Origin: Salipiger abyssi
Lineage (GTDB): Bacteria; Pseudomonadota; Alphaproteobacteria; Rhodobacterales; Rhodobacteraceae
Length of the DNA: 64,000 nucleotides
Assembly (NCBI RefSeq): GCF_017311415.1
Contig: NZ_JAEKIS010000016.1
Location: forward strand, 1 to 64,000
Reading direction: 5' to 3'
The notes beneath the pieces were generated by a model. It did not search any database. It had not been told where the DNA came from and worked only from the letters and a program-made list of their open reading frames with translations. Both the position numbers and the translations under genes were made by a program. This document shows positions 2,501 through 21,139 of this stretch, piece by piece (position 1 is the stretch's first letter; every line of letters begins with the position of its first letter).

Positions 2501-3619
2501 TCAGACGGCCTTCTGTGATAGAGCGAGGAAAAGCTCATACAGCTGCGAGGCGTCAACGCTGACAGGGCCATTTATCATGGCGCGGGGCGCATCCCCGAAG
2601 GATGTTTCTTCAAGAACGTATGGGTTTCCTGCAATACCACGGTCCGCATTCAAGATGATGGCTGTGCCGCGAACATCGCCGAAGAAGGCCTCGTCAATAT
2701 GGTTTTTGATCGTTCGCCATGCTGTTGCGAAATGCGCAAGTGCGTCTGTAACGCTTGAAGGCTTGGCGTTGTTCGCCATCAGTACCCCGTGACCGATCCT
2801 AAATTCAGGCCCCCGGCCAAGCGCAATTCTGCCATTTACGGCATCAAAGGCTTGGATAGCGGCTTCTATCACGTCGGCTGCTGAGCTTGGTGTCGGTGGC
2901 AGCGTCGATGCCGGAGTCGTGGCAACGCCGAAATGTGCGCGAAGGACTGAGGACTTGGGCTCCAGGTTGAAGGGAGCCCAGCGGCGCAAGAAAGCTACAT
3001 CCAGCGGCTCGACTGAGACATCGGCCTGGTTCATGGCCGCGAGGATATAGAGCCTCGGCGGAAATGCGTACTCGATCAGATCACCCGTCGCAGGGTCGAT
3101 AAGATCAAAGAACTGCGTCGCGGGTGTCGGCTTGCCGTCTGCTGCAAGGCGTTTGTCAGCCTCGATGGCCACGATCGCGCCGCCAAACACTTGAACGGTT
3201 GGACCACGGTTGATTTCATCAATAATAAGCAGTGCCGCGCTGTCGGCCTGCTTGGCGTATTCGCTGGCCCTGTAGAGGATACCTTCGGTGATCCTGAACG
3301 ATCCCGGTGGCTTGCCGCTTCGGACATCAGGCATCATGCCGGTGAGGAAATCCCGATACTTGCTAGATTGATGAAGGACACATCGAAAGACTTTTCGGTT
3401 GGAGGACTTACCGATTGCCCCTGGAAGGGTCGTGGTCGGTGTCGGCGGGATGGGCACCGCTGCTCCGCGCTTGTGAACGGGCGTGCTAGCGTGCCCCTTG
3501 TTCTCAAACAGAGTTGCTACTTCGCTAAGGAGCATAGACTTTCCAGTACCCGGCGGCCCCGCAAGCAGAACATTGCGGCTGTTTTCTAAAAGATCCAGAA
3601 TTTCACTAGCGTCAGCCAT
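2501..3619 (-). CDS. McrB-like AAA+ NTPase of a restriction system
   Basis: The protein (372 residues) is an almost bare AAA+ module. Walker A GPPGTGKS is at residues 21-28, Walker B LLIIDEINRG near 130, and the McrB-type sensor AAMNQADVSVEPLD with FLRRW follows near 200. The MNxAD segment is characteristic of the McrB GTPase branch, so GTP use is plausible. Unlike E. coli McrB it has no N-terminal DNA-binding domain, so recognition must come from another subunit. Its start overlaps the stop of the upstream 181-residue gene by 8 bases, and McrC follows 5 bases after its stop, arguing for one translationally linked complex. MoxR-type chaperones are an alternative family, but the McrC neighbour makes the McrB reading much stronger. 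Confidence 0.8.
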   Translation of the reverse strand: MADASEILDLLENSRNVLLAGPPGTGKSMLLSEVATLFENKGHASTPVHKRGAAVPIPPTPTTTLPGAIGKSSNRKVFRCVLHQSSKYRDFLTGMMPDVRSGKPPGSFRITEGILYRASEYAKQADSAALLIIDEINRGPTVQVFGGAIVAIEADKRLAADGKPTPATQFFDLIDPATGDLIEYAFPPRLYILAAMNQADVSVEPLDVAFLRRWAPFNLEPKSSVLRAHFGVATTPASTLPPTPSSAADVIEAAIQAFDAVNGRIALGRGPEFRIGHGVLMANNAKPSSVTDALAHFATAWRTIKNHIDEAFFGDVRGTAIILNADRGIAGNPYVLEETSFGDAPRAMINGPVSVDASQLYELFLALSQKAV

Positions 3620-4157
3620 GGGGGTATTGCTCTTTAGTTACCAAGTCGAGAAATGCTGATTTGCAGCCATCTGCGAACCAATCTCGTGCTAGTTTTTCGA
3701 TCTTAGGGTCCCAAGTGTTAGGAGAAAGAAGGCTTGTCTCTGTTGTGAAGTACAACCAGACAGCACCATCTGCCTGTTGAAGAATCATAATAACGGAGTG
3801 CCCGCCATTAGGGTCCGGCTTTATAAGGTTGTCGACATGTAGACTGGATACCCGCCCGATCTTGCACTCGAATGGGCGAGATGGATATGGCGGCCATACC
3901 TCTAGCTCAGCGACTTTGTCAGACGCGCCATCATTCCAATTTAAGTCTCCAAAGTAGATAGTTTTTTTCCGTTTGGTTCTACGCCCGGTAAAAATCTTCC
4001 CCAGAAATGGGAAAAATTCATCCTGCGGGTTAAATCTCAGGTCTCTCGCGCCGCCGCCACTCGCTGCATCATTTGACTCTGCTCTGGCTTTTCTTTTGTC
4101 GCCTTCATCTACTCGTTGAAGGATTACTCGAACAACCGCTGCTCCATTCCCGCTCAT
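3612..4157 (-). CDS. Unknown 181-residue protein inside the McrBC-methyltransferase operon
   Basis: I do not recognise the family. The ATG at 4157 forms an ATGA overlap with the stop of the upstream methyltransferase and has AAGAGAAG upstream, so it is preferred to the ATG 8 codons earlier. The N-terminal third is basic and polar (VDEGDKRKARAESNDA), followed by FNPQDEFFPFLGKIFTGRR, KKTIYFGDLNW and a mixed beta-like section with PFECKIGRVSS and GHSVIMILQQADG; the end is helical. It has no nuclease, helicase or methylase motif. Since the neighbouring McrB-like protein lacks a DNA-binding domain, this subunit is a reasonable candidate for target recognition; that is inference from position only. 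Confidence 0.7.
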   Translation of the reverse strand: MSGNGAAVVRVILQRVDEGDKRKARAESNDAASGGGARDLRFNPQDEFFPFLGKIFTGRRTKRKKTIYFGDLNWNDGASDKVAELEVWPPYPSRPFECKIGRVSSLHVDNLIKPDPNGGHSVIMILQQADGAVWLYFTTETSLLSPNTWDPKIEKLARDWFADGCKSAFLDLVTKEQYPHG

Positions 4158-6376
4158 ATGCTTCTCTTTCTTTTTATACACTTAAGGCCACTGGCGAACT
4201 CGGAGCTAACGTAGGGAACCGCGCCGAGCTTGCGCATGGCCTCTACGCGCTGCGCATATTGCGTGATTTCCCCGCTTGTTTTTTTCAGCCAAGTCAAAAG
4301 CAGGAAGTCTTGGGTCACGGTGGACGACATCTCGCCGGGCAATGGTGGTTGGCCACGATCCAACAGTGGAAAGTCGCGGAGCATGAGCCGTACATCATCC
4401 TCCGAACACCCATAGGCTCTGGCAACAAGTACGTCCGCTTCACAGCGCAGTTCAGCTATACGCCAAACGTGGTCGAGGCCCGAGTTTTCTGCCTGATCGA
4501 GGTCATGCAATTTTTTGGCGATCCCAATGAGGCGCTGCGCAGGAAGTGAGGCAATATCAAGACCTGGCAGGCGTAGCGACAGAAGGACAAAGTAGTTCAC
4601 GGTGGTTGTCACGACGCGTCGAAGCAGCCAGTCAAAAGGTAGTGAGTTGACCACTGCTAGCCATAGGAACAGCCGGTCCTCTGATGGATCATTGGGGAAG
4701 GAGACGGTCGGAACCTTGTTTCCGCAGATGACATCCGGGGGGATCACGGAGGCCATCATGGACCGCTCATTGGTTTGCCCTGTGATATCGCAAAAACCGG
4801 CGCGTAGCCGTTGTGAGCGCCGCGTGGCTTCTGCGGATGCCACGCTCATTGGTAGCCAGAATTGTGGGGCGATCCGGCTTTCGCCTGGCGAGAGATTGCG
4901 CCAGACGGCGCTTCTTCCTTCACCCGAGACGTAAGACTTACAACCCAAGCGATGCGGTTGCACCATGCGTCCTTCGATAACAGGCAAACAGCCGTCCTTT
5001 GGCTGCTTGACGAAGTGGCGACGCCCATGGGTCATATCGATTTCGCGGCAAAACTCAGGATACCAGGGAGAATCCTCAGTAGATGGAAGCACACCGCCGA
5101 TCTGCATCTTCTTAAATAGTCGCCATTCCTCTGCTGAGCGTATCTCGGGCAGAGTGAGATCGGGGCGTAGCTTTTCGAGGTCCTTGAGCGGCAGCCGGAC
5201 TGACGGGACGGCGGTGACGCTTTCATTGTCAGCGGAGGCATGGCTAATCTTTATAGACGCAAGCGGTTTGCCGGAATCTGTTTTGCGGCGATAATTCACG
5301 ACGAGAAATTTGAAGCGCGTATCGATGGCAAAATGCCGGGCGCGGTTCTCCAAAACCGTGAAGGTGAGATCATCGGTGCCGTTTGCCAGTGCGCGCCGCA
5401 GGGGTTCTGTATTCAGAGAGCGGATTAGACCTGCCGGAACCAGTAGAGCACCGTGCCCGCCTGCACGTGTGAGCTTATAGAGTAGTTCGGTGAAAGCGAC
5501 GTAGAGATCAGGTTCACCTTTTGCAAGCAACGGGTATCGCTCAATAAGCGTACCGGCCATAGCAGCCCGTTCGGTCTTGGCCTCTTGATATCCGGCGAGT
5601 GATTGCAGGCGGTAGCTGGTTCCGTAATCGCGGGTTTCCCCGCTCGCCTTGATATACTCGTGCCTTGTGAGTTTGACCTTCTCCCAAGGAGGGTTCGCAA
5701 TCACGATGTCAAAGCCATCGCGGCTCATATCAAGCCACGCAGAATCTGAGGCAAGAAGGCTATCCTGGGCACGCCAACGAGAGTGCATGGTGGCGATAGC
5801 GCCCAAGTCATCTGTGAGAGATGCAAGGGAGAGCCGAGTCCCGCGCAAAGCCATGGGCGAAAGATCGGCGGCATAGACCGAATTCCGCAGCCAGTCACTG
5901 GCGAGAATTCGATCCGGCCCGCAAGCCACAATGGAAACGGCTGTAAGCAATATTCCAGCGCCGCAGGCTGGATCAATGACCTTGGCACCTTCCTTGAGTT
6001 GCTTCTCCACACTGTGAGCCAAATGCAGAGCAAGGCGAAAGTCTGTGTGATACGCACCGCTGCTGCGTTGTTGGCTGTGATCCAATGCTTCGCGGGCAAG
6101 TGCACTCAAACAAAGGGAAGGATGGATACCTGTATCGTCCAATAGCTGAACAAGCGTTCTGGCATCATCCAAGAAGCGCTCGGGCGCGGCCAAAGGCTTA
6201 ATCCCGAATTGCCCACAAAATTCAGCAAAATCGAAGCCGCCTAGACGGGCAGATGCCGCTTCCAATAGCTGAAAGCGCAGCTCATCACTATTCCCATGAT
6301 GACGCGCAAGGCATTGCGCTATGTAGGCATCGGCCTTCGCCAGACGCTTTCCTTCGACGGTGCTAGACGGTTTCAT
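4154..6376 (-). CDS. N6-adenine DNA methyltransferase with fused target-recognition region
   Basis: The 740-residue protein has the gamma-type amino-methyltransferase layout. The S-adenosylmethionine motif I (VIDPACGAGILL) is near residue 138 and the catalytic motif IV (IVIANPPWEK) near 230. NPPW marks N6-adenine methylation, as in Eco57I-like and type I HsdM enzymes. The region from about 400 to 650 (YPEFCREIDMTHGRRHF, LPVIEGRMVQ, WLPMSVAS) resembles the target-recognition part of type IIG-like methylases. No nuclease motif is seen, so it is modification only. It overlaps the upstream D12 methylase by 4 bases (ATGA) and the next gene likewise, so all are one operon. Expected role: methylating one strand of an asymmetric site. 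Confidence 0.85.
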   Translation of the reverse strand: MKPSSTVEGKRLAKADAYIAQCLARHHGNSDELRFQLLEAASARLGGFDFAEFCGQFGIKPLAAPERFLDDARTLVQLLDDTGIHPSLCLSALAREALDHSQQRSSGAYHTDFRLALHLAHSVEKQLKEGAKVIDPACGAGILLTAVSIVACGPDRILASDWLRNSVYAADLSPMALRGTRLSLASLTDDLGAIATMHSRWRAQDSLLASDSAWLDMSRDGFDIVIANPPWEKVKLTRHEYIKASGETRDYGTSYRLQSLAGYQEAKTERAAMAGTLIERYPLLAKGEPDLYVAFTELLYKLTRAGGHGALLVPAGLIRSLNTEPLRRALANGTDDLTFTVLENRARHFAIDTRFKFLVVNYRRKTDSGKPLASIKISHASADNESVTAVPSVRLPLKDLEKLRPDLTLPEIRSAEEWRLFKKMQIGGVLPSTEDSPWYPEFCREIDMTHGRRHFVKQPKDGCLPVIEGRMVQPHRLGCKSYVSGEGRSAVWRNLSPGESRIAPQFWLPMSVASAEATRRSQRLRAGFCDITGQTNERSMMASVIPPDVICGNKVPTVSFPNDPSEDRLFLWLAVVNSLPFDWLLRRVVTTTVNYFVLLSLRLPGLDIASLPAQRLIGIAKKLHDLDQAENSGLDHVWRIAELRCEADVLVARAYGCSEDDVRLMLRDFPLLDRGQPPLPGEMSSTVTQDFLLLTWLKKTSGEITQYAQRVEAMRKLGAVPYVSSEFASGLKCIKRKRSI

Positions 6377-7416
6377 GCGGCAACGCGCTTTGCTTCCTTC
6401 GTTTTTTCAATACAGAAAAGCAGCTCTCCCACATCGGAGGCAGCTTCGCTGGCGGCTCTATTTGGGCGGTAGCGACCGATATTTTGGAGCGAATGGACAC
6501 TTAGCTGCCCAATCCCTGCAAGAGTATCGGAGAGCGATGTGATCGGCACATGTCCCTCGGTGCTATAGGAAAGAAAGATGCGCCGTGCAGGAAGGCTGGC
6601 GACCAGGCGTTCAATAGCCTTGGCGGCTCTTACCTTGTAGCAAAAATCGGATGCCTTTTCCCGCCATGGCCGAATGCCGCAAACCCCTTCGACTTCGGGT
6701 TCGTCGCCTAGCGCAATAGTTTCTAGAATGTGATAATAGGCGGCGTATTGGCGTTTCGTGTACGGTGGATCGAGATAGACAGTATCTTCGGGCTTGCATG
6801 ATACTTGATGCACATCCTGCGTGCCCATAGTCGCGTGCGGAACGCTATTGGGAAAACTGGATCGCTCAACGAACAATGTATCGAGGGATTGCCTCTGCCA
6901 TTTGGAAAGGAAGCATCCATAGGTTCCGGCGGTGTTTGCAACGCGGTTCGCGGCCCGCATCAAATCAGCGATAAGGACCCGTTCTTCTTGTGTCGTGACA
7001 AGCTCACGCTCTCGCCAATCACGAATCTGCCGTCGCATCCCGTCGATTTTTTTGGCGTTCTCTTCGGTAAAATACATCCGAGAGACGGCACCGTGGTCAG
7101 AGGAAGCCGGGCTATATTCCCGCCAAATAAAGCCGGGAATGGGTTTCACCTCGTTCAGAGCTGCAACAGCGTTGTCATAGCTGGAAAGCCCCCTGAAAGG
7201 TATGTCGGCACTGGACAAGACGCGCGCATAGGACATAATTGCTGATGACAAGAGGTGATCGTTAACATGTACCCTCCAGCCGGCGCGGGACGCAGCTTGA
7301 GCAACTGCGCCCGTGCCGGAAAAGGCATCCACGAAAACACCTCCATCAGGTTCACCAATATGATCGATGATAGCCTCCACGATGCGCGCCTTGGAGCCAA
7401 TGTACCGGAATGACAT
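6373..7416 (-). CDS. D12-class (Dam-like) N6-adenine DNA methyltransferase
   Basis: The first gene of the restriction operon. MSFRYIGSKARIVEAI at the N-terminus and VFVDAFSGTGAVAQ near residue 28 are the D12-class start and AdoMet-binding motif; the catalytic DPPY motif is in VYLDPPYTKRQYAAYYH near 215. The 347-residue length is near the upper end for D12 enzymes such as M.FokI halves or M.DpnIIA. Two different adenine methylases in one operon usually mean that the two strands of a non-palindromic site are modified separately. The region just upstream (7417-7500) should hold the operon promoter, but I see no clear -35/-10 pair. Base composition is lower in GC than in the core chromosome. Confidence 0.88.
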   Translation of the reverse strand: MSFRYIGSKARIVEAIIDHIGEPDGGVFVDAFSGTGAVAQAASRAGWRVHVNDHLLSSAIMSYARVLSSADIPFRGLSSYDNAVAALNEVKPIPGFIWREYSPASSDHGAVSRMYFTEENAKKIDGMRRQIRDWRERELVTTQEERVLIADLMRAANRVANTAGTYGCFLSKWQRQSLDTLFVERSSFPNSVPHATMGTQDVHQVSCKPEDTVYLDPPYTKRQYAAYYHILETIALGDEPEVEGVCGIRPWREKASDFCYKVRAAKAIERLVASLPARRIFLSYSTEGHVPITSLSDTLAGIGQLSVHSLQNIGRYRPNRAASEAASDVGELLFCIEKTKEAKRVAA

Positions 7417-7519
7417 GTGTGCGGGTCTCCCTGCCTTACTTGCTTTTTGTTGTCATGCCGGTGGTGAGCGGAAGTGGCATGGGTGGTTTCTTAGCCCATA
7501 CAAACTGCTCGGGCGTTAA

Positions 7520-8340
7520 GGTCTGGCGCAATGTTTGATCGAATTCAGTGGTGTAGGCCTCTCGGAGGGGTGATCGACTCTTCTGCCAACATGGCACAAG
7601 CTACCGGGGGCTAGCAATATCTTGTGGGCAGATGAGGCCGGAATGCTGCTTCTGGTGCCGCCTGAGCGACAACAGGACGGTGTTTGGTTCTGTGCAGGTG
7701 GAAAAGTCACACTCTCCAAGCCCTGCGAGCTGGGTTCAGGGGGGCGGCGATAGGCCTCATGATCGGGTTCAGCGCCGACGCGCTGGCGGCATCCAAACCG
7801 CGCAGGGTTGGTCAGGGGTCCACGGGGGCAGGAACGCCCCATGGTCGATGGGATGGTTCCAAGGAAGGGCTGCTATGAAATGCTCTTTTCCTGGTCTCGA
7901 TGAAATCGTCTCCATGAAATGGCGCACATCCAAACTGCGGAAGGTTGGTCTCCATGAAATGGTCATGGGGGTATCGGTGGGAGCAGGAACGCTCCCCTGA
8001 TTGGTGATGCAACGGCCAAAGGTTGCGAGTGGTTTCAAGGGGCGCGATAGCCCTTTGATCCATGGTTCGGTGCAGGTGGAGAGGGACTTCTCCAAGCCCT
8101 GCGAGTGGTTGATCGGCGATACGATCTATGGCTCTGGAATGGGTTCAATGCCCAGGAAGAGCCACTGGCCGGGGGGATGCAACGGGGGCGCGCAGCGGGA
8201 CCCCTTGCCAAGCTGTTTTGTACTACAAAACACAGCTTGCGGTCCGACTTATCTCAGCCGTCCCTCATCCGGGGCGGGCTTGTAGTACAAGGCTCTAAGC
8301 TGCCCTCGGATACCAAAACGGACTCTATCGAACCGCTGAC
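7520..8340 (+). ncRNA. Candidate large ornate non-coding RNA built from repeated hairpins
   Basis: About 820 bases without a plausible gene contain recurrent hairpins with fixed loops and changing stems. Loop GCGATA occurs three times: within 7741-7758 (GGGGC/GCCTC), 8037-8056 (7-bp stem) and 8111-8126 (GATCG/CGATC). Loop AGGAAC occurs twice: 7825-7840 (GGGGC/GCCCC) and 7979-7996 (GGGAGC/GCTCCC). A TGAAAT loop occurs four times at 7872-7883, 7898-7908, 7912-7922 and 7952-7962, with GC, CG or CC outer pairs. A longer module, GTGCAGGTGGA..TCTCCAAGCCCTGCGAG, occurs at 7692-7729 and 8070-8105, and CATCCAAAC..GGTTGG at 7790-7811 and 7927-7948. Changed stems around constant purine-rich loops indicate selection for RNA structure and favour the plus strand. 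GOLLD- or ROOL-like giant RNAs of mobile elements are the closest known concept; identity is not established, and the ends are approximate. Confidence 0.6.
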
Positions 8341-8371
8341 CACGATGCGCTGCAATATCGATGATCTATAC

Positions 8372-8623
8372 TCAGGTCTCTTTCAAGGGGGCTTCGATGA
8401 TGGCACGGGCGTTGGCGTAGACCTCGCGCAGTTCTTCGTCCGCCACCTTCGCTGCTTCTTCTTCCAGCGACAGTAGCGCCGCGTCGTAGATATCGCGGGT
8501 GTCATCATCGGAGATTACGCCCCGTTCGGCCAGATTCCCGATAAGGGCAGAAATCAGAGCCGAACTTACAAAATCCGACGCCGTGACATTGTTAACCCGC
8601 TCTCTCAATTCTTCAATGTCCAT
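8372..8623 (-). CDS. Small acidic helical protein, unknown
   Basis: An 83-residue protein rich in Glu and Asp (MDIEELRERVN, LLSLEEEAAKVADEELREV), predicted by eye to be mostly helical with a hydrophobic centre (SSALISALIGNLAERGVIS). It has no signal peptide, cysteine pair or recognised domain. It is transcribed divergently from the LamG-type secreted protein and lies just beside the large RNA candidate. If the RNA region were transcribed from the minus strand, this gene would be upstream of it. No function can be proposed. Confidence 0.55.
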   Translation of the reverse strand: MDIEELRERVNNVTASDFVSSALISALIGNLAERGVISDDDTRDIYDAALLSLEEEAAKVADEELREVYANARAIIEAPLKET

Positions 8624-8716: not shown

Positions 8717-10999
8717 ATGGGGACTATGAGATTTTTAGCCTTTGCACTTTTGACATTATATCTTTCGGCGGGTTCTTCCCAGGCGCAGACGGCGCTTGAT
8801 CTCTCTGGCGCAAATGGTGGTTCTGTGAAGCTAGGATATGATTACCGCAGCTGTGAAGCGGGAGTTGAAGGCGCGATGCGATGCAGTGGGTATATTCCGA
8901 ATGCGACGAATTGGGACGGCACCACAACCTACCTGTCATCATCCAGCATTTCCGGCCTGAGCGATGGTAAAAAAGGAACATTTAGCGTCTGGTTCAAAAC
9001 AGATGATTACACAACCGACCACTATGTTTTCGAAGCACAATCTTCACGCTTTTATATCAACTTTAACGACAACAACGGCCGTATGCACTTCGCTGGACGT
9101 GACTCCACAGGCACATCAATGCTCTATGCCATGACCGACGACAACTCGATCGTACAAGGCCAGTGGCATCACCTCATGGCTTCATGGGATACAAGCGAAG
9201 GCGCAGATGCCAGCACATGCACAACATGCCACATATATCTGGATGGCGTTGATCAAACCGGCAATGGCTTTGTTACATATTCTGATGCCGCCGACATAAA
9301 TTACGTACGCGCAGCCTACAGAGTCGGCGCACAAGTCTCCGGCGCTAATTTATGGCAAGGCGGCATCGCTGATCTCTGGATCGATTTTGACACAAATATA
9401 GACCTCTCTGTTGCATCAAACCGTGAAAAATTCATCGATGCCAGTGGGAACCCGGTTTATCTGGGGCTTGATGGCTCCCTCCCAACCGGAAGCGCACCTG
9501 ACATTTTCCTCTCCGGCGCGACTGATGACTGGCACACCAATAAGGGCGCAGGCGGTGGCTTCACCGAAAACGGAGCGCTCACCACTGCTGGCTATCCACC
9601 AGGTGATGACGGGCACAATAAGAACGGCCTTATCGGATGGTGGAGACTAGACGAAACCAGCGGAACAACGGCAGAAGATAGCAGCGGCTATGGGAATGAT
9701 GGCGCGATGAGTGGCGGCCTAAGCGGTGCCCAATCCGAAACAGCAAAGGTTGGCACAGGTTTAAGTCTTTCCGGCGGCAATTATGAAATCGAAATTCCGA
9801 ACAGTACCAGCTTACAGCCAGCGAGCGAAGTCACACTCTCCGTTTGGGCCAAGTCTGATTGGTCCACAGGCGGGCAAGTACTCATCGCCAAGCAGGTCGG
9901 TACAGGCAGTACAGATTGGCGCAACAGCTATACGCTTCTGGTGTCTTCCCCTAATCTCCAAGGATATGCAGGTCATGGTGGAAACATGCAGGGCATTTCC
10001 TACGATTTTTCACCGGAAACGGATCGTTGGTATCACTTTGCCTATACTTATAGCGATTCAGCCAATACGCATAAGCTTTTCATTGATGGTGTTGAGGTTA
10101 ACTCAGGAAGCAATAGCGCCTCTCTCGGTTACAATACATCGCCCGTCACATTGGGATTTGATTATGAAGATGAAGCTCTGACCCAGAATCTTTACCATTT
10201 TGGCGGCGTGATGGATGATGTTCGCATCTACAACCGCGCCCTGAGCCCAACTGAGATTGCTGAACTCTACAGCGGCGGATGTCCAGGCGGCAGCCCGAAA
10301 TACATTCAGGCGTGTACTTCTGACGATACATTGACAAACGGGCTTATAAGCCATTGGAAATTCGACGAAGAAACAGGCAGCGCCACAGCATACGATTCAA
10401 TGACCGGTATTACCGGAACTGTCGAACCCTCAACAACACTAACATCCGCCACGGGCGTTATTCGCGGCGCTGTTGATGTTCAGGATCTATACTACATCGA
10501 TGCCGGTAGTGACGACGTTTACAGCCTTGATGAAAGCTGGAGCCTATCCGTTTGGGCAAAAACAACAAATGTCGGTGACGGTCAACAAATCGTCATGAAG
10601 AACTCCTTCCCCAATCGTACCTATCATCTCTTGTTCGAGACCGCCGGCACGATCATGTTCGGATATGATGCCCCTAGTGGCTTTGCAGGCCGAAGGACAA
10701 CTGGCACTTTTGATAATGATCAATGGCACCACATCATTGCGACTTTTGACGATACAACAAATTCACTGGCTATCTATGTTGATGGCGTCGCCGTGGCACA
10801 ATCCTCCTTCGGCGCGGGTTCCGGTGAGGAGCCAAACACACTCTCCGGCGGCACTCTACGCTTATTGGCACATGCCGGCGCAGGCGACGGGTTTTACGGT
10901 CTTGTCGATGACTTCCGCATCTATAACCGCGTCATAACTGCCGAAGAAGCCCTGCGGCACTACCAAGGTGCATATTCTTGGAAAAACTGGGGCGAGTAG
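8717..10999 (+). CDS. Secreted LamG-repeat (concanavalin-like) protein
   Basis: A 760-residue exported protein with a signal peptide (LAFALLTLYLSAGSSQAQ). It then has a short module (DLSGANGGSVKLG, SCEAGVEGAMRC) and three LamG/concanavalin A-like domains at about residues 70-240, 300-520 and 540-755. Each carries the GxWHH/WYHF signature (QWHHLMASWD, RWYHFAYTYSD, QWHHIIATFDD), followed by IDG or VDG and a closing DDVRIYNR motif. LamG domains bind carbohydrate or surface ligands; an enzymatic domain is not seen. Start is at 8717 or 9 bases later; neither has a strong ribosome site. It shares its N-terminal module with the DUF1566-like protein at 11523, so both may be parts of one surface structure of the island. 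GC is low compared with the core. Confidence 0.8.
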   Translation: MGTMRFLAFALLTLYLSAGSSQAQTALDLSGANGGSVKLGYDYRSCEAGVEGAMRCSGYIPNATNWDGTTTYLSSSSISGLSDGKKGTFSVWFKTDDYTTDHYVFEAQSSRFYINFNDNNGRMHFAGRDSTGTSMLYAMTDDNSIVQGQWHHLMASWDTSEGADASTCTTCHIYLDGVDQTGNGFVTYSDAADINYVRAAYRVGAQVSGANLWQGGIADLWIDFDTNIDLSVASNREKFIDASGNPVYLGLDGSLPTGSAPDIFLSGATDDWHTNKGAGGGFTENGALTTAGYPPGDDGHNKNGLIGWWRLDETSGTTAEDSSGYGNDGAMSGGLSGAQSETAKVGTGLSLSGGNYEIEIPNSTSLQPASEVTLSVWAKSDWSTGGQVLIAKQVGTGSTDWRNSYTLLVSSPNLQGYAGHGGNMQGISYDFSPETDRWYHFAYTYSDSANTHKLFIDGVEVNSGSNSASLGYNTSPVTLGFDYEDEALTQNLYHFGGVMDDVRIYNRALSPTEIAELYSGGCPGGSPKYIQACTSDDTLTNGLISHWKFDEETGSATAYDSMTGITGTVEPSTTLTSATGVIRGAVDVQDLYYIDAGSDDVYSLDESWSLSVWAKTTNVGDGQQIVMKNSFPNRTYHLLFETAGTIMFGYDAPSGFAGRRTTGTFDNDQWHHIIATFDDTTNSLAIYVDGVAVAQSSFGAGSGEEPNTLSGGTLRLLAHAGAGDGFYGLVDDFRIYNRVITAEEALRHYQGAYSWKNWGE

Positions 11000-11147
11000 A
11001 ATTGGATTGAATGCATCTGTGTCGAAAAAAGTGATCCGCGCGGATTCAGAGTTTTATGGCGCTTGTGCTGGAATTCAATCTTGCCTATTAACCAATTTTA
11101 AGAGAAAATAGGTTATTATAGTAAAATGATGAATTTCGGGGTATTGG

Positions 11148-11426
11148 ATGATGAAATTTTTTATTTTTGTATTATTTCTGGCGATTGCGCCACTTCACGC
11201 CAATGCGCAAGAGAGCGCAGAGACTCCACCGGCGGATACGCGGATCGAAGTCGATGAGGATAATGATGTTATTCGGTTCTTCATCGACGGCGAGGAAGCG
11301 GCCTATCTGTCTAAGGAAGGCTTCATGGTGCGGGACAGCGTTGCCTATGGTGGGACGATTCGCGACCACAACGGAAAGGTTTTTGAATCTAATACCGCTG
11401 AGACGCCGCAGGAAGAAGTCGAATAG
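11148..11426 (+). CDS. Small secreted protein, unknown
   Basis: A 92-residue protein with a clear signal peptide (KFFIFVLFLAIAPLHANAQ) and an acidic mature part of about 70 residues (RIEVDEDNDVIRFFIDGEEAAYL) ending in Glu-rich sequence. The VIRFFIDGEEAAYLSKEGFMVRD segment looks like short beta-strands, as seen in small phage-tail or pilus-associated proteins, but no family is recognised. A second in-frame ATG follows immediately. It sits between the two larger secreted proteins on the same strand, with gaps of about 150 and 95 bases. Joint expression and joint function at the cell surface are inferred from position only. Confidence 0.6.
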   Translation: MMKFFIFVLFLAIAPLHANAQESAETPPADTRIEVDEDNDVIRFFIDGEEAAYLSKEGFMVRDSVAYGGTIRDHNGKVFESNTAETPQEEVE

Positions 11427-11522
11427 TGCGCGTTAAGTTGCGCACCTTTCGTGTCCGCTTGTGGGCATTGATTACCGAAGGGCGTGAGGTTAATTGGGGG
11501 GATTAAAGTAAGGTAGGTTTTA

Positions 11523-12269
11523 ATGTTTAGAGTTTCTTTATGGATATTCATTCTATCGCTTTTTGTGATTCCCAATGCCGCGCAGGCACAAACTTCGGCA
11601 GACTTCTCTGGTGTCGGGGGCGGCTCCATAAGAGTTGGTGCGGATACTGATACTTGCGACAGCAGCAAGGAAGGCGCTATTCGCTACAACAGCTCTTCAA
11701 GTTGTGCGGAATATTGTGATGGCAACGACTGGACTTGTCCTAGCAGCGGTGGCTGTGTTGCACCTACATTGTGCCCGAACGTCGGTGATGTTTGTGATGA
11801 CAGCGATGCCGGGACAACCAATGATCCGATTTTTGCTGGATTTATTTTGTATGGCACATCATGTGAAGCGCTTTATGTGACAGATGACAACCAAAGCGCG
11901 GGAACAGAGTGGCGAACCCCGAATCCGGGCCTGGATGATATAGCAACAGACTCCTATACAGATGGGAGAGCCAGTAGTGACCAGATTGCAAATTCTACGA
12001 CCTTCCCTGCGTTTAAATTATGCAAGGATTTGACGGATGGTGGTTATTCCGATTGGTATCTGCCGTCTATTGACGAAATGTGGCTTCTTGCAAAGAATAG
12101 CTCTGACATTGATGTCAATGCGTCAGGCAGTTTCACTTCAAATTCTTACTGGATCTCAAATGAAGCGGGCATTTACAATGCCTTCCAGTTGGATATGTCG
12201 GTTCCATATTTCAACAACTTTGCCCCTAAGGACGCAACTCTTGAAGTGCGCTGTGTTCGTCGGGATTAA
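11523..12269 (+). CDS. Secreted protein with DUF1566-like C-terminal domain
   Basis: The 248-residue protein has a signal peptide (SLWIFILSLFVIPNAAQAQ). A module ADFSGVGGGSIRVG..CDSSKEGAIRYN, with YCDGNDWTC following, is the type found at the tips of phage-tail and pilus proteins. The C-terminal domain has the DUF1566/Lcl features SDWYLPSIDEMWLL, SYWISNE and VRCVRRD. Such domains are found in variable receptor-binding or adhesive proteins. It shares its N-terminal module with the LamG protein at 8717. Eight cysteines suggest disulfide stabilisation outside the cytoplasm. A role in adhesion or mate recognition for a mobile element is plausible but not shown. Confidence 0.7.
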   Translation: MFRVSLWIFILSLFVIPNAAQAQTSADFSGVGGGSIRVGADTDTCDSSKEGAIRYNSSSSCAEYCDGNDWTCPSSGGCVAPTLCPNVGDVCDDSDAGTTNDPIFAGFILYGTSCEALYVTDDNQSAGTEWRTPNPGLDDIATDSYTDGRASSDQIANSTTFPAFKLCKDLTDGGYSDWYLPSIDEMWLLAKNSSDIDVNASGSFTSNSYWISNEAGIYNAFQLDMSVPYFNNFAPKDATLEVRCVRRD

Positions 12270-13847: not shown

Positions 13848-15026
13848 ATGTTTGCCCGTTCCTTCCTTCTATCCTCGGCGCTTGCCATCATCGGCAGCGC
13901 GGCTCTAGCAGAGAACCCTGTGCGCATTGATGATGCGCGCGGCGGCGGCCTGCCTGCCAGCATCGGCATCAAAGAACAGAGTGGAGGCGGCGAAGTTCGC
14001 CTCCAACTCGCCCCGCGCGTCGATACATCTGCCACCACCGATCTCAGCCTCCAACGCTGGCAGGATTTCAAAGGTGAAGTGCTGCTCAGCGTGCGCACCG
14101 ATCCGGCGCTCGTGCCAAGCGCGCGCGTGCTGGAAATGGTCGCCTCCATCCAGATGGTGGATGATTTCGGGGCGGTGATCGCCAGCGGATTTGACATCAA
14201 TGTCGAGCATGATGTCGTGTTGGCGGTCTCGGGCGGCAAGGCAGAAATCACGCACATCACAAATGATGAGCGCGGCCTCGTCATCACGGCTCTTGTCCGT
14301 GATGAGGCCGGAAACGTGATTGATCCGCCCCAAGGCGCTCTGGCGCTCTACCGCACTGGCGGCGAGCGTCTTTGCTTCGAAGAACAGATCGTGCAGGTGA
14401 AAAGCGCTTCGTCCGTTCCGCTAACGGCGTCAACTGCTGCCGTGCCAGGTGAGCGTCTTCCCATGAACTTCGTCATCCTGCTGGATCGCTCCGGCTCGAT
14501 GAAGTCCGTCATGGAGGACGTAAAATCGGCGGCGCGCAGCTTCGTGCATGATCTGCCCGACAATGCCACATGCGCGGTCGGGGCATTCGCAGATAAGGGC
14601 GGCAGCTTCGAGCCATCCGAAGGGCTGGGCATAGGCCAATGCATTGCCTCCAACTTCCCGATGGACGGCGTAGTGGCAGGCGGCGGCACCGATCTCTTTC
14701 AACCGCTCAAAGTCACCTATGAGTGGCTGGCCGAAGAAAAGGCAGGCCAGCAAAGCGCCGTCATCATCATCACCGATGGTGCGCTCAACAAGCAAACCGA
14801 TCTGCTGCACGTGGTCCGAGACCTCAAGGGAAGCGCGCTTACCTTCGTCTACTTCCTGGGTGGGCGCGAAGAGCGCTATCTGCGCTCTTTGGCGGATAGC
14901 TACCTCACCCATGAAGGCGATCTGGCCGACCAGCTCCCTCGCTACTTCCAAGTGCTGAGCGAGACCTATTCGAGCCAAACGGTGCTGCGTCAGGTCGCCT
15001 GCTCGGCAGAAGGCACGCAGCCATGA
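13848..15026 (+). CDS. Secreted von Willebrand factor A domain protein
   Basis: The 392-residue protein has a signal peptide (SFLLSSALAIIGSAALA) and a C-terminal vWA domain with a complete metal-ion-dependent adhesion site: DRSGSMKS near residue 210, GGTDLF near 275 and IIITDGALN near 303. The N-terminal half contains beta-rich sequence (LQLAPRVDTSATTDL). vWA domains mediate metal-dependent protein binding outside the membrane. It overlaps the coupling-protein gene by 4 bases. This links it to the transfer machinery and suggests an envelope scaffold or surface contact factor. The protein may be periplasmic. Confidence 0.75.
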   Translation: MFARSFLLSSALAIIGSAALAENPVRIDDARGGGLPASIGIKEQSGGGEVRLQLAPRVDTSATTDLSLQRWQDFKGEVLLSVRTDPALVPSARVLEMVASIQMVDDFGAVIASGFDINVEHDVVLAVSGGKAEITHITNDERGLVITALVRDEAGNVIDPPQGALALYRTGGERLCFEEQIVQVKSASSVPLTASTAAVPGERLPMNFVILLDRSGSMKSVMEDVKSAARSFVHDLPDNATCAVGAFADKGGSFEPSEGLGIGQCIASNFPMDGVVAGGGTDLFQPLKVTYEWLAEEKAGQQSAVIIITDGALNKQTDLLHVVRDLKGSALTFVYFLGGREERYLRSLADSYLTHEGDLADQLPRYFQVLSETYSSQTVLRQVACSAEGTQP

Positions 15027-16573
15027 GGCGTTTCGACTTTCGAGAGAAGGAGGAAGCCCAACGGCGGCTCTGGAGTTATGATCCAGACAGCCACGGCTCA
15101 GCCAAATGGGCGGATTCCTTTCATTTGGCCGCGCGGGGCTACGGCCCCGCTGGCCTTCATACGGTTGGCTACTTGCCCGTAAATGATCCCCGGCAAGGCG
15201 CGGTGCGGGTGTCTTATGGCGGCGACCGCCATGAGCTGATTGTCGCCCCGACGCGCGGCGGCAAAGGCGTCTCGGGTTCGATCCCGCGACTGCTTGAACA
15301 TCAGGGCAGCGCCATCGTTCTGGACATCAAAGATGGGGAGTTGGCGTTCATCACCGCAAGGTATCGCCGCGATGTCTTGGGGCAGAATGTTATCCTGATC
15401 GATCCCTTTGATGTAGCGGCCACCGAGCTTGGGTTTCCGCGCTCGTCCTTCAATCCATGCGCCCGCATCGAGCCTTTCGGCGACGATGCGTTCGATGATG
15501 CCATGCTGGCCGCCGATAGCCTCGTCATCCCCGATGGCGGCTCGGAAAGCCACTGGTCGGGCGAAGCGGCCAGCATGATTGCGGGGGTTTTGCTGCATAC
15601 TGCCGAGCAAGGGACGGCCAGCTTAAAAGCCATGCGCAAAGCCTTGAACGCCAGCCGCGATGAGTTTCGGGCCATGATCGATCAAATGCTGGACTCGCCC
15701 TTTGATCTGGTCAAAGCCGCTGGCGGTCGGATCGACAATAAGGAAGAGCGCGAGCTTTCCAGCGTGATTTCAACCGCGCAGCGCAACACGCATTTTCTTG
15801 AAAGCCCGAGGCTGGCGGATGCGCTGAATAGCTCCGACTTTGACCCGGCCACGATTGGTGAAGATACCAGTATCTACATCATTCTGCCCGCCAGAAGGAT
15901 CGGCACAGCGAGGCGCTTCTTGCGCGTGCTGATCGGGGCGCTGATCTCCAGCATCACCACGCTGCCGGAAAAGCCCTCCATCCCCGTGATGTTTCTCCTG
16001 GAAGAGATGGCCACGCTGGAGCGCATGGCGATCATTGAGCAAGCTGTGGGCCTCATGGCGGGGTTCGGCATGCAGTTCGTCATGGTGGTGCAGGACTTCA
16101 CGCAGCTCAAAGACCTTTATCAGAACCGCTGGGAATCCTTCCTTGCCAATAGCGCGCTGATCCAGTGCTTTGGCACCAATGACCGCTTCACGGCGGATTA
16201 CCTCTCGGCGCTTTGCGGCCAAACCAGCCTGCACCAGCTCAGCCTTGATAGCGCTATGGAGCGCGGGAAAATTCTGGGCGATCCAAACTTCCGCTCATTC
16301 TCGGATTCTAGCCAGGGGCGTGCGCTTATCACCTCTACTGAGCTGATGAGCCTGCATCCATCGGTGCAGGTGGCAGCGCTCGCCGCCGCGCGCCCTGTCA
16401 TTGGCTACCGGCCTGTCTACTTCCTGGAGAAGCGATTTCGGGACCGCCGGGGCATGCCGCTCTACGATATTCATCCATCCCGCGCTGGCCAGCCCATCAG
16501 CCGTGCCGTGGATTTTTCTGCTCCCGGCCTCGCGCTCGGCGCGATGCTTGGCGATTACTTGAGCGTGGGGTGA
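15023..16573 (+). CDS. TraG/VirD4-type coupling ATPase
   Basis: Coupling proteins bring relaxase-DNA complexes to a type IV secretion channel and use ATP. This 516-residue protein has Walker A APTRGGKG at 75-82, the family segment SAIVLDIKDGEL, the SFNPCARI box, and Walker B VMFLLEEMATLER near 325, followed by AVGLMAGFGMQFVMVVQDFTQL and FGTNDRFTADYLS, all typical of TraG/VirD4. The usual two N-terminal transmembrane helices are missing: the protein starts directly with a soluble segment. Small membrane proteins at 12519 and 16577 in the same operon could supply the anchor. No relaxase or VirB genes are visible in the window, so the island is either mobilizable or has its remaining genes to the left. 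Confidence 0.85.
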   Translation: MRRFDFREKEEAQRRLWSYDPDSHGSAKWADSFHLAARGYGPAGLHTVGYLPVNDPRQGAVRVSYGGDRHELIVAPTRGGKGVSGSIPRLLEHQGSAIVLDIKDGELAFITARYRRDVLGQNVILIDPFDVAATELGFPRSSFNPCARIEPFGDDAFDDAMLAADSLVIPDGGSESHWSGEAASMIAGVLLHTAEQGTASLKAMRKALNASRDEFRAMIDQMLDSPFDLVKAAGGRIDNKEERELSSVISTAQRNTHFLESPRLADALNSSDFDPATIGEDTSIYIILPARRIGTARRFLRVLIGALISSITTLPEKPSIPVMFLLEEMATLERMAIIEQAVGLMAGFGMQFVMVVQDFTQLKDLYQNRWESFLANSALIQCFGTNDRFTADYLSALCGQTSLHQLSLDSAMERGKILGDPNFRSFSDSSQGRALITSTELMSLHPSVQVAALAAARPVIGYRPVYFLEKRFRDRRGMPLYDIHPSRAGQPISRAVDFSAPGLALGAMLGDYLSVG

Positions 16574-19018: not shown

Positions 19019-21139
19019 ATGCAGCATGCACTAGCAAATACGGAAGGCGCGAACGCCGCGCTCATCTACTGCCGTGTCTCGGACAAGAAGCAGAAGACGC
19101 AAGGCCACGGCCTTGAGAGCCAGGAGCACCGCTGCCGTAAATACGCGGAAGAGCGCGGCTTTGATGTCGAGATGGTCTTCACCGATGATATCACCGGTGG
19201 CGGCGACTTCATGAAACGCCCCGCCATGCGCGCCTTGCTGGCGTTCTTGGCGTCTGAGCCAGGTCAAAACTACACAGTCATCTTCGATGATTTGAAGCGT
19301 TTCGCCCGCGATACTCGCTTCCATTGGGACTTGCGCGAGAAGCTCGCCTCGTTTGGAGCGCGCGTCGAATGCCTGAATTTCCGTTTTGATGATTCCCCCG
19401 AAGGCCGGTTTGTCGAAACGATGTTTGCGGCCTCCGGCCAGCTGGAGCGTGAACAAAATGGCCGTCAGGTCGTCCAGAAGATGACCGCCCGCGTTGAGAA
19501 AGGCTACTACGTCTTTTTCCGCCCGGTCGGCTACCGCTACGAGAAAGACAAAGTGCACGGCAAGATTCTGGTTCGGGACGAGCCTGTCGCTTCCATCATC
19601 GCCGAAGCTCTCGAAGGCTTCGCCAGCGGTCGCTTCCGCTCACAAGCCGAGGTGAAGCGCTTCCTTGAAGCCCAGCCGGATTTCCCGAAAAGCGGCAAGA
19701 GCGGCTATGTCCACCCGACGAAGGTGCGCGACATGTTGGAGCGCGCGGTCTACGCAGGCTGCATTGAAGCCCCGAAATGGGGCGTTTCCTTGCGCAAAGG
19801 CCATCATGAGCCGTTGATTAGCTTTTCCACCTACGAGCGCATCCAAGCGCGTCTCAAGGGCACGTTGAACGCGCCCGCCCGCAAGGATATCAATCAGGAC
19901 TTCCCGCTGCGCGGCTTCGTGCTGTGCGATGATTGCGGGGAACCGATGACCTCCTGCTGGTCGAAGGGGCGTAACAAGCTCTATCCCTATTATCTGTGCG
20001 ATACGCCAAGCTGTGGCTCCAAGCGCAAGTCGATCCGCCGCGCTGATATCGAAGATGGTGCAGAAGCTCTCCTGCGCGGTCTGCAACCGGCCACGCAGCT
20101 CATGAACCTCGCCAAGGCCATCTTCACTGATATTTGGGAGATGCGCCGCAAGGAGGCCATTGGCGCGCGCAAGGCACTAGAATCCCAGCTCAAGGATGCA
20201 AGCAAGCAGATCGACAACTTGCTGGACCGCATCATGGATGCGACCAGACCGTCTGTGATTGGAGCCTACGAAAAGCGCATCGAAGAGCTGGAGCGCGAGA
20301 AGATCAGACTGGCTGAACGGGTCGAGTCAGCAGTGCCGAACGAGGCACGCCTGGCTGATTTTATCGAACCGGCCTTGGAATTTTTAGCAAACCCTTGGAA
20401 TATTTACAAAAATGGCAACTTTGCCCTCAAGCGCACAGTGCTCAAACTGGCCTTTGCAGAGCCTTTAAGGTATAGCCGAAATGAGGGTTATCGAACCGCT
20501 GAAACCACCTTTCCTTTCAAGGTGTTAGCGGATTTTTCATCCCTAAAGTGCGGGATGGTGGGCGACCTTGGAATCGAACCAAGCGTGCGTCTCCGCGAGG
20601 GAGTTACAGTCCCCTGCCACACCTTGCGGCCTGTCGCCCACTTTCCCACCGGTGACCCGGCGTGGTGGGCTGATTACAGTCGACCAAAACCATCGTCAAC
20701 AGGAAAATCCCTTGCGATGCGGACGGCAGAGAGGCAAGGGAACGGCACCGCAGGAAAAGGGGTGTGTCATGGCGAAAAAACCGAAATGGGTGGTGGAAAA
20801 GGAGCAGGCGAAAAAGGCCCGCTCCGCGGAAACCGTCTGGCTCTTCGGTCTGCACGCGGTGCGCGACGCGCTGGTGAATCCGCGCCGCGAGAAGCTGCGC
20901 CTGATCGTGACGCCCAACGCGCAGATAAAACTCGCCGATGCCATCGAAGCGGCGGGCATCGCGCCCGAGATCCACGACCCGCGCAGGTTCCAGGCGCCGC
21001 TCGATCCGCAATCGGTGCATCAGGGCGCCGCATTGGAGGTGAAACCGCTCGACTGGGGGCGGCTGGCGGATGTGGCGCTTGGCGACGGCACGCGCCCGCC
21101 CCGGCTGGTACTGCTCGACCGGGTGACCGATCCGCATAA
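19019..21139 (+). CDS. Large serine recombinase (integrase) of the island; frame runs through tRNA-Tyr
   Basis: The N-terminal resolvase domain has YCRVSDKKQ with catalytic Ser21 and later FDDLKRFARDT and GQLEREQN. A Recombinase domain follows (PVGYRYEKDKVHGKIL), then a zinc ribbon (CDDCGEPMTSCW with YLCDTPSCGSK) and a coiled coil (LESQLKDASKQIDNLLDRI). AAGGAGGAG before ATG 19019 is an excellent ribosome site. The family-like end (FKVLADFSSLKCGMV) falls at about 20,556, exactly at the 3' end of the tRNA-Tyr. From there the frame continues without a stop through the antisense of the tRNA (GDLGIEPSVRLREGV) and through the start of rlmB in the wrong frame, adding about 190 foreign residues. The recombinase catalyses insertion and excision of the element; the extended tail is a consequence of integration at this site. 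Confidence 0.92.
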   Translation: MQHALANTEGANAALIYCRVSDKKQKTQGHGLESQEHRCRKYAEERGFDVEMVFTDDITGGGDFMKRPAMRALLAFLASEPGQNYTVIFDDLKRFARDTRFHWDLREKLASFGARVECLNFRFDDSPEGRFVETMFAASGQLEREQNGRQVVQKMTARVEKGYYVFFRPVGYRYEKDKVHGKILVRDEPVASIIAEALEGFASGRFRSQAEVKRFLEAQPDFPKSGKSGYVHPTKVRDMLERAVYAGCIEAPKWGVSLRKGHHEPLISFSTYERIQARLKGTLNAPARKDINQDFPLRGFVLCDDCGEPMTSCWSKGRNKLYPYYLCDTPSCGSKRKSIRRADIEDGAEALLRGLQPATQLMNLAKAIFTDIWEMRRKEAIGARKALESQLKDASKQIDNLLDRIMDATRPSVIGAYEKRIEELEREKIRLAERVESAVPNEARLADFIEPALEFLANPWNIYKNGNFALKRTVLKLAFAEPLRYSRNEGYRTAETTFPFKVLADFSSLKCGMVGDLGIEPSVRLREGVTVPCHTLRPVAHFPTGDPAWWADYSRPKPSSTGKSLAMRTAERQGNGTAGKGVCHGEKTEMGGGKGAGEKGPLRGNRLALRSARGARRAGESAPREAAPDRDAQRADKTRRCHRSGGHRARDPRPAQVPGAARSAIGASGRRIGGETARLGAAGGCGAWRRHAPAPAGTARPGDRSA
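20540..20566. other. Probable attachment-site junction of the island
   Basis: The recombinase coding sequence runs into the 3' end of tRNA-Tyr here: TGGTGGGCGAC at 20556-20566 is the antisense of the acceptor end plus CCA. GC content and codon use change from island to core type directly after this point. The matching second copy of the site should lie to the left of the window, so the exact crossover bases cannot be given. Confidence 0.6.
20556..20639 (-). tRNA. tRNA-Tyr (GTA)
   Basis: Read on the minus strand, the acceptor arms GGGCGAC and GTCGCCC pair perfectly, followed by discriminator A and an encoded CCA. The anticodon loop CTGTAAC gives GTA between GGGGA and TCCCT. A long variable arm (class II, as for Tyr in bacteria) precedes the T-arm with TTCGATT. 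The gene serves as the insertion site of the mobile island, which abuts its 3' end and leaves the mature tRNA sequence intact. Confidence 0.95.

Follow-up and report, generated by a model that had tools for sequence, protein, structure and literature searches.

We found that positions 7680-8242 (plus strand) of the Salipiger abyssi DNA analyzed here (64,000 nucleotides, below called the window) make up a hairpin array: about 18 short stem-loops set in a row with short linkers, as read from the sequence, its fold and its alignment to relatives. The array is a fixed part of a family of mobilizable islands and has a fixed place in them. Our leading reading, held tentatively, is that of a candidate class of modular structured RNA transcribed from the plus strand; the class is new as far as these searches show, with no match above cut-off in Rfam 15. 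Second comes a possible, if less probable, folded single-stranded plus DNA, a strand present in conjugative transfer or its conversion. Such a structure could be a priming site, a hairpin recognized by a relaxase-type enzyme, or a single-strand promoter of the Frpo kind that drives leftward expression of the methyltransferase and ArdC genes. Few large structured nucleic acids are known from mobile elements, and the element enlarges this group by a widespread class. Its location between defense-type cargo and transfer genes makes its role testable in island excision, transfer and establishment.

A sequence-only reading had proposed a large structured RNA in the block 7520-8340. The element does lie inside this block, with limits defined by BLAST matches to relatives, an alignment of 14 long copies and a covariance model (R1). 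Alignments to relatives begin at position 7674 at the earliest, and the common part stops at about 8242. The first ~155 bases of the block (7520-7673) had to be dropped, having no homologue in the 35 loci compared. The fold of the whole block was better than that of 20 out of 20 shuffled sequences on the plus strand (z -3.08) and also on the minus strand (z -2.68).

All hairpins described below are on the plus strand, and their coordinates were verified against the window sequence. The array starts with the first copy of a GTGCAGG..CCTGCGAG hairpin (7692-7729; D3/D4 repeat, 14-copy alignment). It is followed by the first GCGATA-loop hairpin, with a weak stem (7735-7764; loop and stem count against shuffles), a CAGCGC-CGAC-GCGCTG hairpin (7770-7785; 14-copy alignment), the first CCAA..TTGG hairpin (7793-7811; D2 repeat, 14-copy alignment) and the first AGGAAC-loop hairpin (7820-7844; D5 repeat, loop and stem count, symmetric hairpin count). 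The middle part contains a CCAAGGAAGGG..TTTTCCTGG hairpin with a TGAAA apical loop (7859-7894; 14-copy alignment), the mini-hairpins CGA-TGAAA-TCG (7898-7908) and CCA-TGAAA-TGG (7912-7922 and 7952-7962), all three from the loop and stem count, and, between the last two, the second CCAA..TTGG hairpin (7930-7948; D2 repeat). Then come the second AGGAAC-loop hairpin with an ATCGG/CTGAT base (7973-8001; 14-copy alignment, a module seen in 22 distinct versions), a GCAAC..GTTGC hairpin (8009-8026; 14-copy alignment), the second GCGATA-loop hairpin (8036-8057; 14-copy alignment, loop and stem count, symmetric hairpin count) and the second GTGCAGG..CCTGCGAG copy (8070-8105; D3/D4 repeat, 14-copy alignment).

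The four hairpins at the 3' end carry the helices of R1 and were delineated in the covariation alignments. These are the third GCGATA-loop hairpin (8111-8126, helix 1), a two-helix hairpin TGGCTCT..GGGTTCAATGCCC..AGAGCCA (8129-8164, helices 2 and 3), the most conserved hairpin GCAACGGGGGC-GCGCAGC-GGGACCCCTTGC (8179-8208, helices 4 and 5, also used in the pattern search) and the terminal hairpin CAAGCTG..GTACTAC..CA-CAGCTTG-CG (8209-8241, helices 6 and 7), where strong conservation ends. A scan of 73 loci detected a second GTASTAC palindrome (CTTGTAGTACAAG, 8279-8291 in the window) in a subset of about 12, mostly ~60 nt past the first one; no GTASTAC palindromes with arms of at least 3 pairs occurred elsewhere in these loci.

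The hairpins share a few recurring loops, GCGATA, AGGAAC and TGAAA, and several share the frame UY-CCA...UGG-UC, with CCA-UGAAA-UGG being the shortest. The loop repeats pointed out in the sequence-only reading are at their places: GCGATA at 7747, 8044 and 8116; AGGAAC at 7830 and 7985; TGAAAT at 7876, 7901, 7915 and 7955. Stems of at least 4 pairs support two of the three GCGATA loops, the weaker stem being the one at 7747, and both AGGAAC loops. The repeated loops exceeded those of shuffled sequences: four repeated-loop hexaloop hairpins were counted against a mean of 0.156, with 2 of 500 dinucleotide shuffles reaching four. TGAMR pentaloops on three Watson-Crick pairs numbered three, all among the four TGAAAT sites, while 300 shuffles gave 0.047 on average. 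Hexaloop hairpins taken all together, 25 compared to 21.1 in shuffles, were hardly above expectation. The longer duplicated modules noted earlier are likewise real, namely D2 (7790/7927), D3+D4 (7685-7729/8063-8105) and D5 (7824/7979).

The alignment of the 14 long copies showed that hairpins are gained and lost, in steps of 14 and 40 nt; these changes speak against a protein-coding sequence. The 3' end is conserved, the 5' end is not fixed among copies, and the four-hairpin core is preceded by anything from no further hairpin to about 14. The core itself is mostly kept, falling below its size in two copies, one of the last 76 bases (L146) and one of 39 bases (L083). The latter is a lone 39-nt terminal block CTTGCC..CTTGCG at about 8012 (element orientation), located between relaxase and TraG fragments. 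In four loci (L145, L146, L071 and L061), the 3' end is extended by 66-69 bp units in tandem, which mostly end in CACATCTCGC and are nearly identical in L146.

Loops may vary within one module: the AGGAAC-hairpin type appeared with AGGAAC, AGCAAC, TCGAAG and AGACAA. The AGGAAC, AGCAAC, TGAAA and TGACA loops look GNRA/GNNA-like, a point in favor of an RNA. In the terminal hairpin, the stem variants TTTT/AAAA, GGG/CCC, GGT/ACC and GTGTG/CACAC were found around GTASTAC, and a CA bulge in the 3' arm was constant, in an alignment that left out 14 of 47 loci for want of a terminal-hairpin match and then L079, L083, L056 and L066. In an IMG/VR contig (L288), the center of this hairpin is GTATGAC, so the most fitting description of the center is a small loop capping a GT/AC end.

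BLAST searches detected relatives in 38 of the family's 295 genomes and on five plasmid records, from Tritonibacter, Devosia, Rhizobium (two) and Bradyrhizobium. Cultured carriers include Tritonibacter mobilis A3R06 and Roseovarius nubinhibens ISM. R1, which was built from the last ~135 bases of the element (136 positions), matched 38 of the 295 family genomes and 25 of 385 genomes of the class at E <=0.001, with the own genome included in both counts and the weakest matches near the threshold. The two sets of 38 family genomes have 34 in common and 42 combined. A 21-base pattern gave at least 117 matching stretches in the species-level genome set, mostly labeled as alphaproteobacteria and a few labeled otherwise; among the first 100 of these loci R1 matched 98, while L198 and L260 had no R1 match at E 1e-10. 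Phage records gave no match to the element, and IMG/VR gave one contig, L288, where the element follows an ORF whose sequence reads as a Vsr-type endonuclease. Judging from these matches, the element is widespread in alphaproteobacterial mobilizable islands. The sets of loci partly repeat the same genomes, so the counts given here are not all independent.

In the own genome, further copies were found on contigs 9 and 48, along with a 26-base match on contig 5. Two own-genome copies (L039, 1-211, and the end of L038) break off in unrelated sequence, perhaps insertion sequences, one of them at a contig start and the other ~100 bases short of a contig end.

The coupling protein TraG was matched at E <=1e-30 in 51 family genomes, 22 of which also had an R1 match. 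For the five TraG genes with at least 56% identity (the window's included), four had the element on the same contig; the contig of the fifth (G082) stops short of the place where the element is expected. The islands L302-L304, with a more distant TraG, showed no significant element match, with two sub-threshold matches in L303.

The mobile-island setting proposed earlier is borne out by relaxase, ArdC, TraG and serine recombinase genes among the neighbors. In the window, the minus strand to the left of the element codes for an ArdC-like antirestriction protein near the contig start (111-854; the metallopeptidase domain matched only positions 1-82 of 126), restriction-type cargo consisting of a McrBC-like component (1206-2495) and an AAA ATPase (2501-3619), an Eco57I/N6 DNA methylase (4154-6376) and, as divergent upstream neighbor, a D12-class adenine DNA methyltransferase (6373-7416). 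To the right, on the plus strand, are the TraG/VirD4 coupling protein of the island (15023-16573) and a large serine recombinase ORF (19019-21139) that extends into a tRNA-Tyr gene (20556-20639, minus). Some islands appear to be inserted in tRNA genes, since the recombinase ORF of L050 similarly overlaps a tRNA-Thr. The right-hand cargo of the window (8717-12269) was read as including a protein with three laminin-G/ConA-like stretches, an Lcl_C-domain protein and signal-like N-termini.

Within 15 genomes, 12 elements had both relaxase and ArdC on the contig within ~30 kb, and in 11 of them (G254, G071, G219, G259, G003, G127, G239, G025, G058, G171 and the second element of G272) both genes were upstream, with the relaxase running in the direction of the element and ArdC antisense to it. 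The exception was the first of two elements on contig 532 of G272, whose downstream relaxase and ArdC precede the second element. Relaxase was upstream in 13 of the 14 elements that had one on the contig within ~30 kb in these genomes (one of the 13 being a weak 35-bit match on G000 contig 27), in five of five further loci and in 14 of 15 loci of another set, where the exception (L144) is a lone hairpin pointing at the relaxase, read as reversed from its arm asymmetry. ArdC was upstream and antisense in 15 of the 16 elements that had it within 26 kb. This constant orientation towards the transfer genes favors a single-stranded DNA function.

Downstream of the 11 elements, within ~8 kb, TraG was found in eight and a serine recombinase in seven. 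Among 118 further loci, with flanks averaging 4.2 and 3.5 kb, a serine recombinase was present in 42 (37 downstream, 6 upstream, one of them both), TraG in 35, of which 32 had it downstream and 3 upstream, and relaxase in 5, invariably upstream. The own genome (5.2 Mb) has five resolvase-domain genes, three of which (contigs 16, 9 and 27) are within ~12 kb of element matches, the one on contig 27 being weak (35 bits).

The genes immediately flanking the element are less uniform. The nearest downstream gene was on the plus strand in 27 and on the minus strand in 42 of 69 loci, consistent with the earlier judgment that the element is not a leader. The nearest upstream gene was on the minus strand in 42 and on the plus strand in 29 of 71 loci; this inconsistent leftward operon speaks against a single-stranded promoter for it. 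Scanned for domains and counted without a background set, the upstream neighbors (61 of 71) included N6_Mtase (5), Eco57I (4), N6_N4_Mtase (3) and C5 methylase (2), and the downstream ones (63 of 69) included four resolvases, two TraG, a Hachiman-type helicase and a SIR2-pAgo-type protein. On a Rhizobium ruizarguesonis plasmid (L042), a copy adjoins a DUF3800 gene, and Shedu and TIR genes are found close by.

The structural reading was checked by covariation over the last 135 bases; the 5' modules rest on the alignment of copies, the module versions and the symmetric hairpin count. In 29 aligned 3' parts, 96.4% of stem cells were paired and 17 of 39 pairs had changed on both sides. The covariation score was 0.257 compared to 0.102 in shuffled alignments, with none of 500 shuffles as high; on the measure of further pair types, the observed value was equaled or exceeded by 52 of the 500. 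In 98 relatives (97 distinct), 97.7% of stem cells paired, 27 of 39 pairs had changed on both sides and the score was 0.311 compared to 0.099, with none of 500 shuffles reaching the observed value on any measure and slid controls at or below 0.054. One alignment (A4) was fitted to the model and thus leans towards the model's structure. Constant loops on covarying stems, first noted within this one copy, hold in it and over about 100 relatives.

The plus strand is the one that folds: G-U outnumbered A-C on it by 70 to 12 in the 81 distinct sequences outside model building. The symmetric hairpin count gave 36 G-U and 14 A-C, and the consensus energy was -39.8 on the plus and -34.6 on the minus strand. 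Covarying pairs and tolerance of G-U over A-C on one strand are both features of structured RNA. Of the 1181 canonical pairs in 30 elements, however, 24 (2.0%) were G-U, below the 209 of 2936 (7.1%) that the same method gave for RNase P RNA, our one comparison family, with 30 sequences from related genomes; the ratios of G-U to A-C were 24:6 and 209:19. In helix 7, the terminal stem, one G-U cell stands beside 139 double-change cells, so that the stem is nearly all Watson-Crick. RNAs do not usually have so few G-U pairs, and it is chiefly for this that our preference for the RNA reading is tentative. Together with the terminal stem and its constant CA bulge, the G-U deficit makes single-stranded transfer DNA a serious rival.

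If the element is an RNA, it would consist of one to about 18 stem-loops strung side by side like beads, with hairpins duplicated, lost and swapped, and with the 3' core of four hairpins, ending in the bulged GTASTAC hairpin, mostly kept. The repeated loops might then display a small number of binding sites many times over for a host protein, or they might pair with other molecules of the RNA; such contacts might serve maintenance or transfer of the island.

The single-stranded DNA reading has a precedent: the T-strand carries the methyltransferase and anti-defense genes of leading regions, and Frpo works as a promoter in single-stranded form, according to the part of PMC11541004 available to us. 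On the same partial source, Frpo/ssi sites resemble the array in being hairpins of one particular strand, located by genes for antirestriction and methyltransferase proteins in a transferable element; in contrast to them, the array is longer and modular, and its leftward operon is inconsistent. We consider it rather unlikely that the array is a DNA machine of interchangeable hairpins, folding on the entering strand and starting replication or early expression of methyltransferase and antirestriction genes. Were this true, a large covarying structure would have been selected in DNA instead of RNA, and the G-U deficit makes it directly testable whether such covariation always means RNA.

Against a role of the entering plus strand stands a separate oriT-like block, present in 9 of the 11 islands that were compared (L289-L292, L294, L296-L298 and L300). 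It centers on TGGTG(C/G)(G/A)CC, with variants, and adjoins an inverted repeat immediately ahead of mobC. It is probably the true transfer origin of the island family. Taking the repeat as its 5' side suggests that the other strand is the one transferred.

An improbable alternative is a DNA-level hot spot, where the hairpins or CTTGC repeats are sites of cargo exchange or module recombination and the structure arises as a side effect when palindromes are corrected. The lone 39-nt block of L083, the shuffling of modules and the tandem units past some 3' ends fit this idea, as do copies with the same left cargo and a different right side (e.g., L045/L050; L040, L054, L057 and L060). A hot spot does not by itself predict G-U over A-C, constant loops or constant place and orientation.

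That the element is itself the oriT of the island is very improbable. A hairpin is situated 5' of a CATCTTG/CG border (CATCTTGCG), which we take to resemble a nic site, and small element-like hairpins are found next to mobC in two loci, L081 and L170 (the latter a weak match of 39.5 bits), and in L144 probably next to the relaxase gene. Apart from these exceptions, the element is not beside relaxase or mobC genes, being ~8-30 kb from the relaxase in the islands of the 15 genomes and 8-30 kb from the conserved block before mobC. Hardly credible is a dispersed REP-like repeat or a composition artifact: the element is palindromic, modular and multiple in some genomes, but its own-genome matches are on contigs with island genes (C9, C16, C27 and C48) or at a contig start (C5), and shuffle controls were far lower.

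Integron attC sites keep their pairing while the sequence varies, with an unpaired bulge marking the strand. The element resembles them in pairing, variability and bulge; unlike in integrons, we saw no gene cassette per site and no integron integrase among the recurrent neighbors (serine recombinases, TraG, relaxase, MobC and methyltransferases) within ~8 kb, as far as the proteins there were annotated. REP/BIME sequences are mosaic arrays of hairpins, as is the element; unlike them, it has a constant island place and, in the own genome, showed no dispersal through intergenic regions.

Kinship with GOLLD, ROOL, OLE or HEARO was not supported, as no Rfam covariance model for them matched. At gathering cut-offs, Rfam reported three tRNAs and nothing else in the whole window; at E <=10 on 7380-8420, chrB-a alone appeared (E 7.9, 15.4 bits compared to a cut-off of 43.9). 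No description of the element was found in the open-license PMC literature. A promoter scan upstream of the element gave no signal, nor did 310 gene upstream regions, so the scan had no power and was dropped as evidence. Terminators in the 200 bases past the element were not enriched (17 of 180 on the plus strand, while control windows gave 15 of 155 to 19 of 139); this counts against the RNA reading, as do the variable 5' end and the copies reduced to 76 or 39 bases. DnaA-like boxes numbered 5 in the 300-nt stretches ahead of 73 elements and 35 in 1.08 Mb overall.

Still, GOLLD and ROOL RNAs are, in the source text available to us, large, structured, located in mobile DNA and of unknown function, as the element is. 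Its conserved 3' and variable 5' parts also recall GOLLD, as described in the accessible part of PMC12286853. In contrast to both, the element is a string of local hairpins in mobilizable islands, while GOLLD and ROOL occur in (pro)phages near tRNA islands. The smtA motif (Soda Lake RNA) is, in the available part of PMC11109978, likewise a large candidate with covariation, located near a methyltransferase gene and of unknown function. Unlike the element, it is reported only from Thioalkalivibrio, and the same partial text mentions a Northern blot as unpublished.
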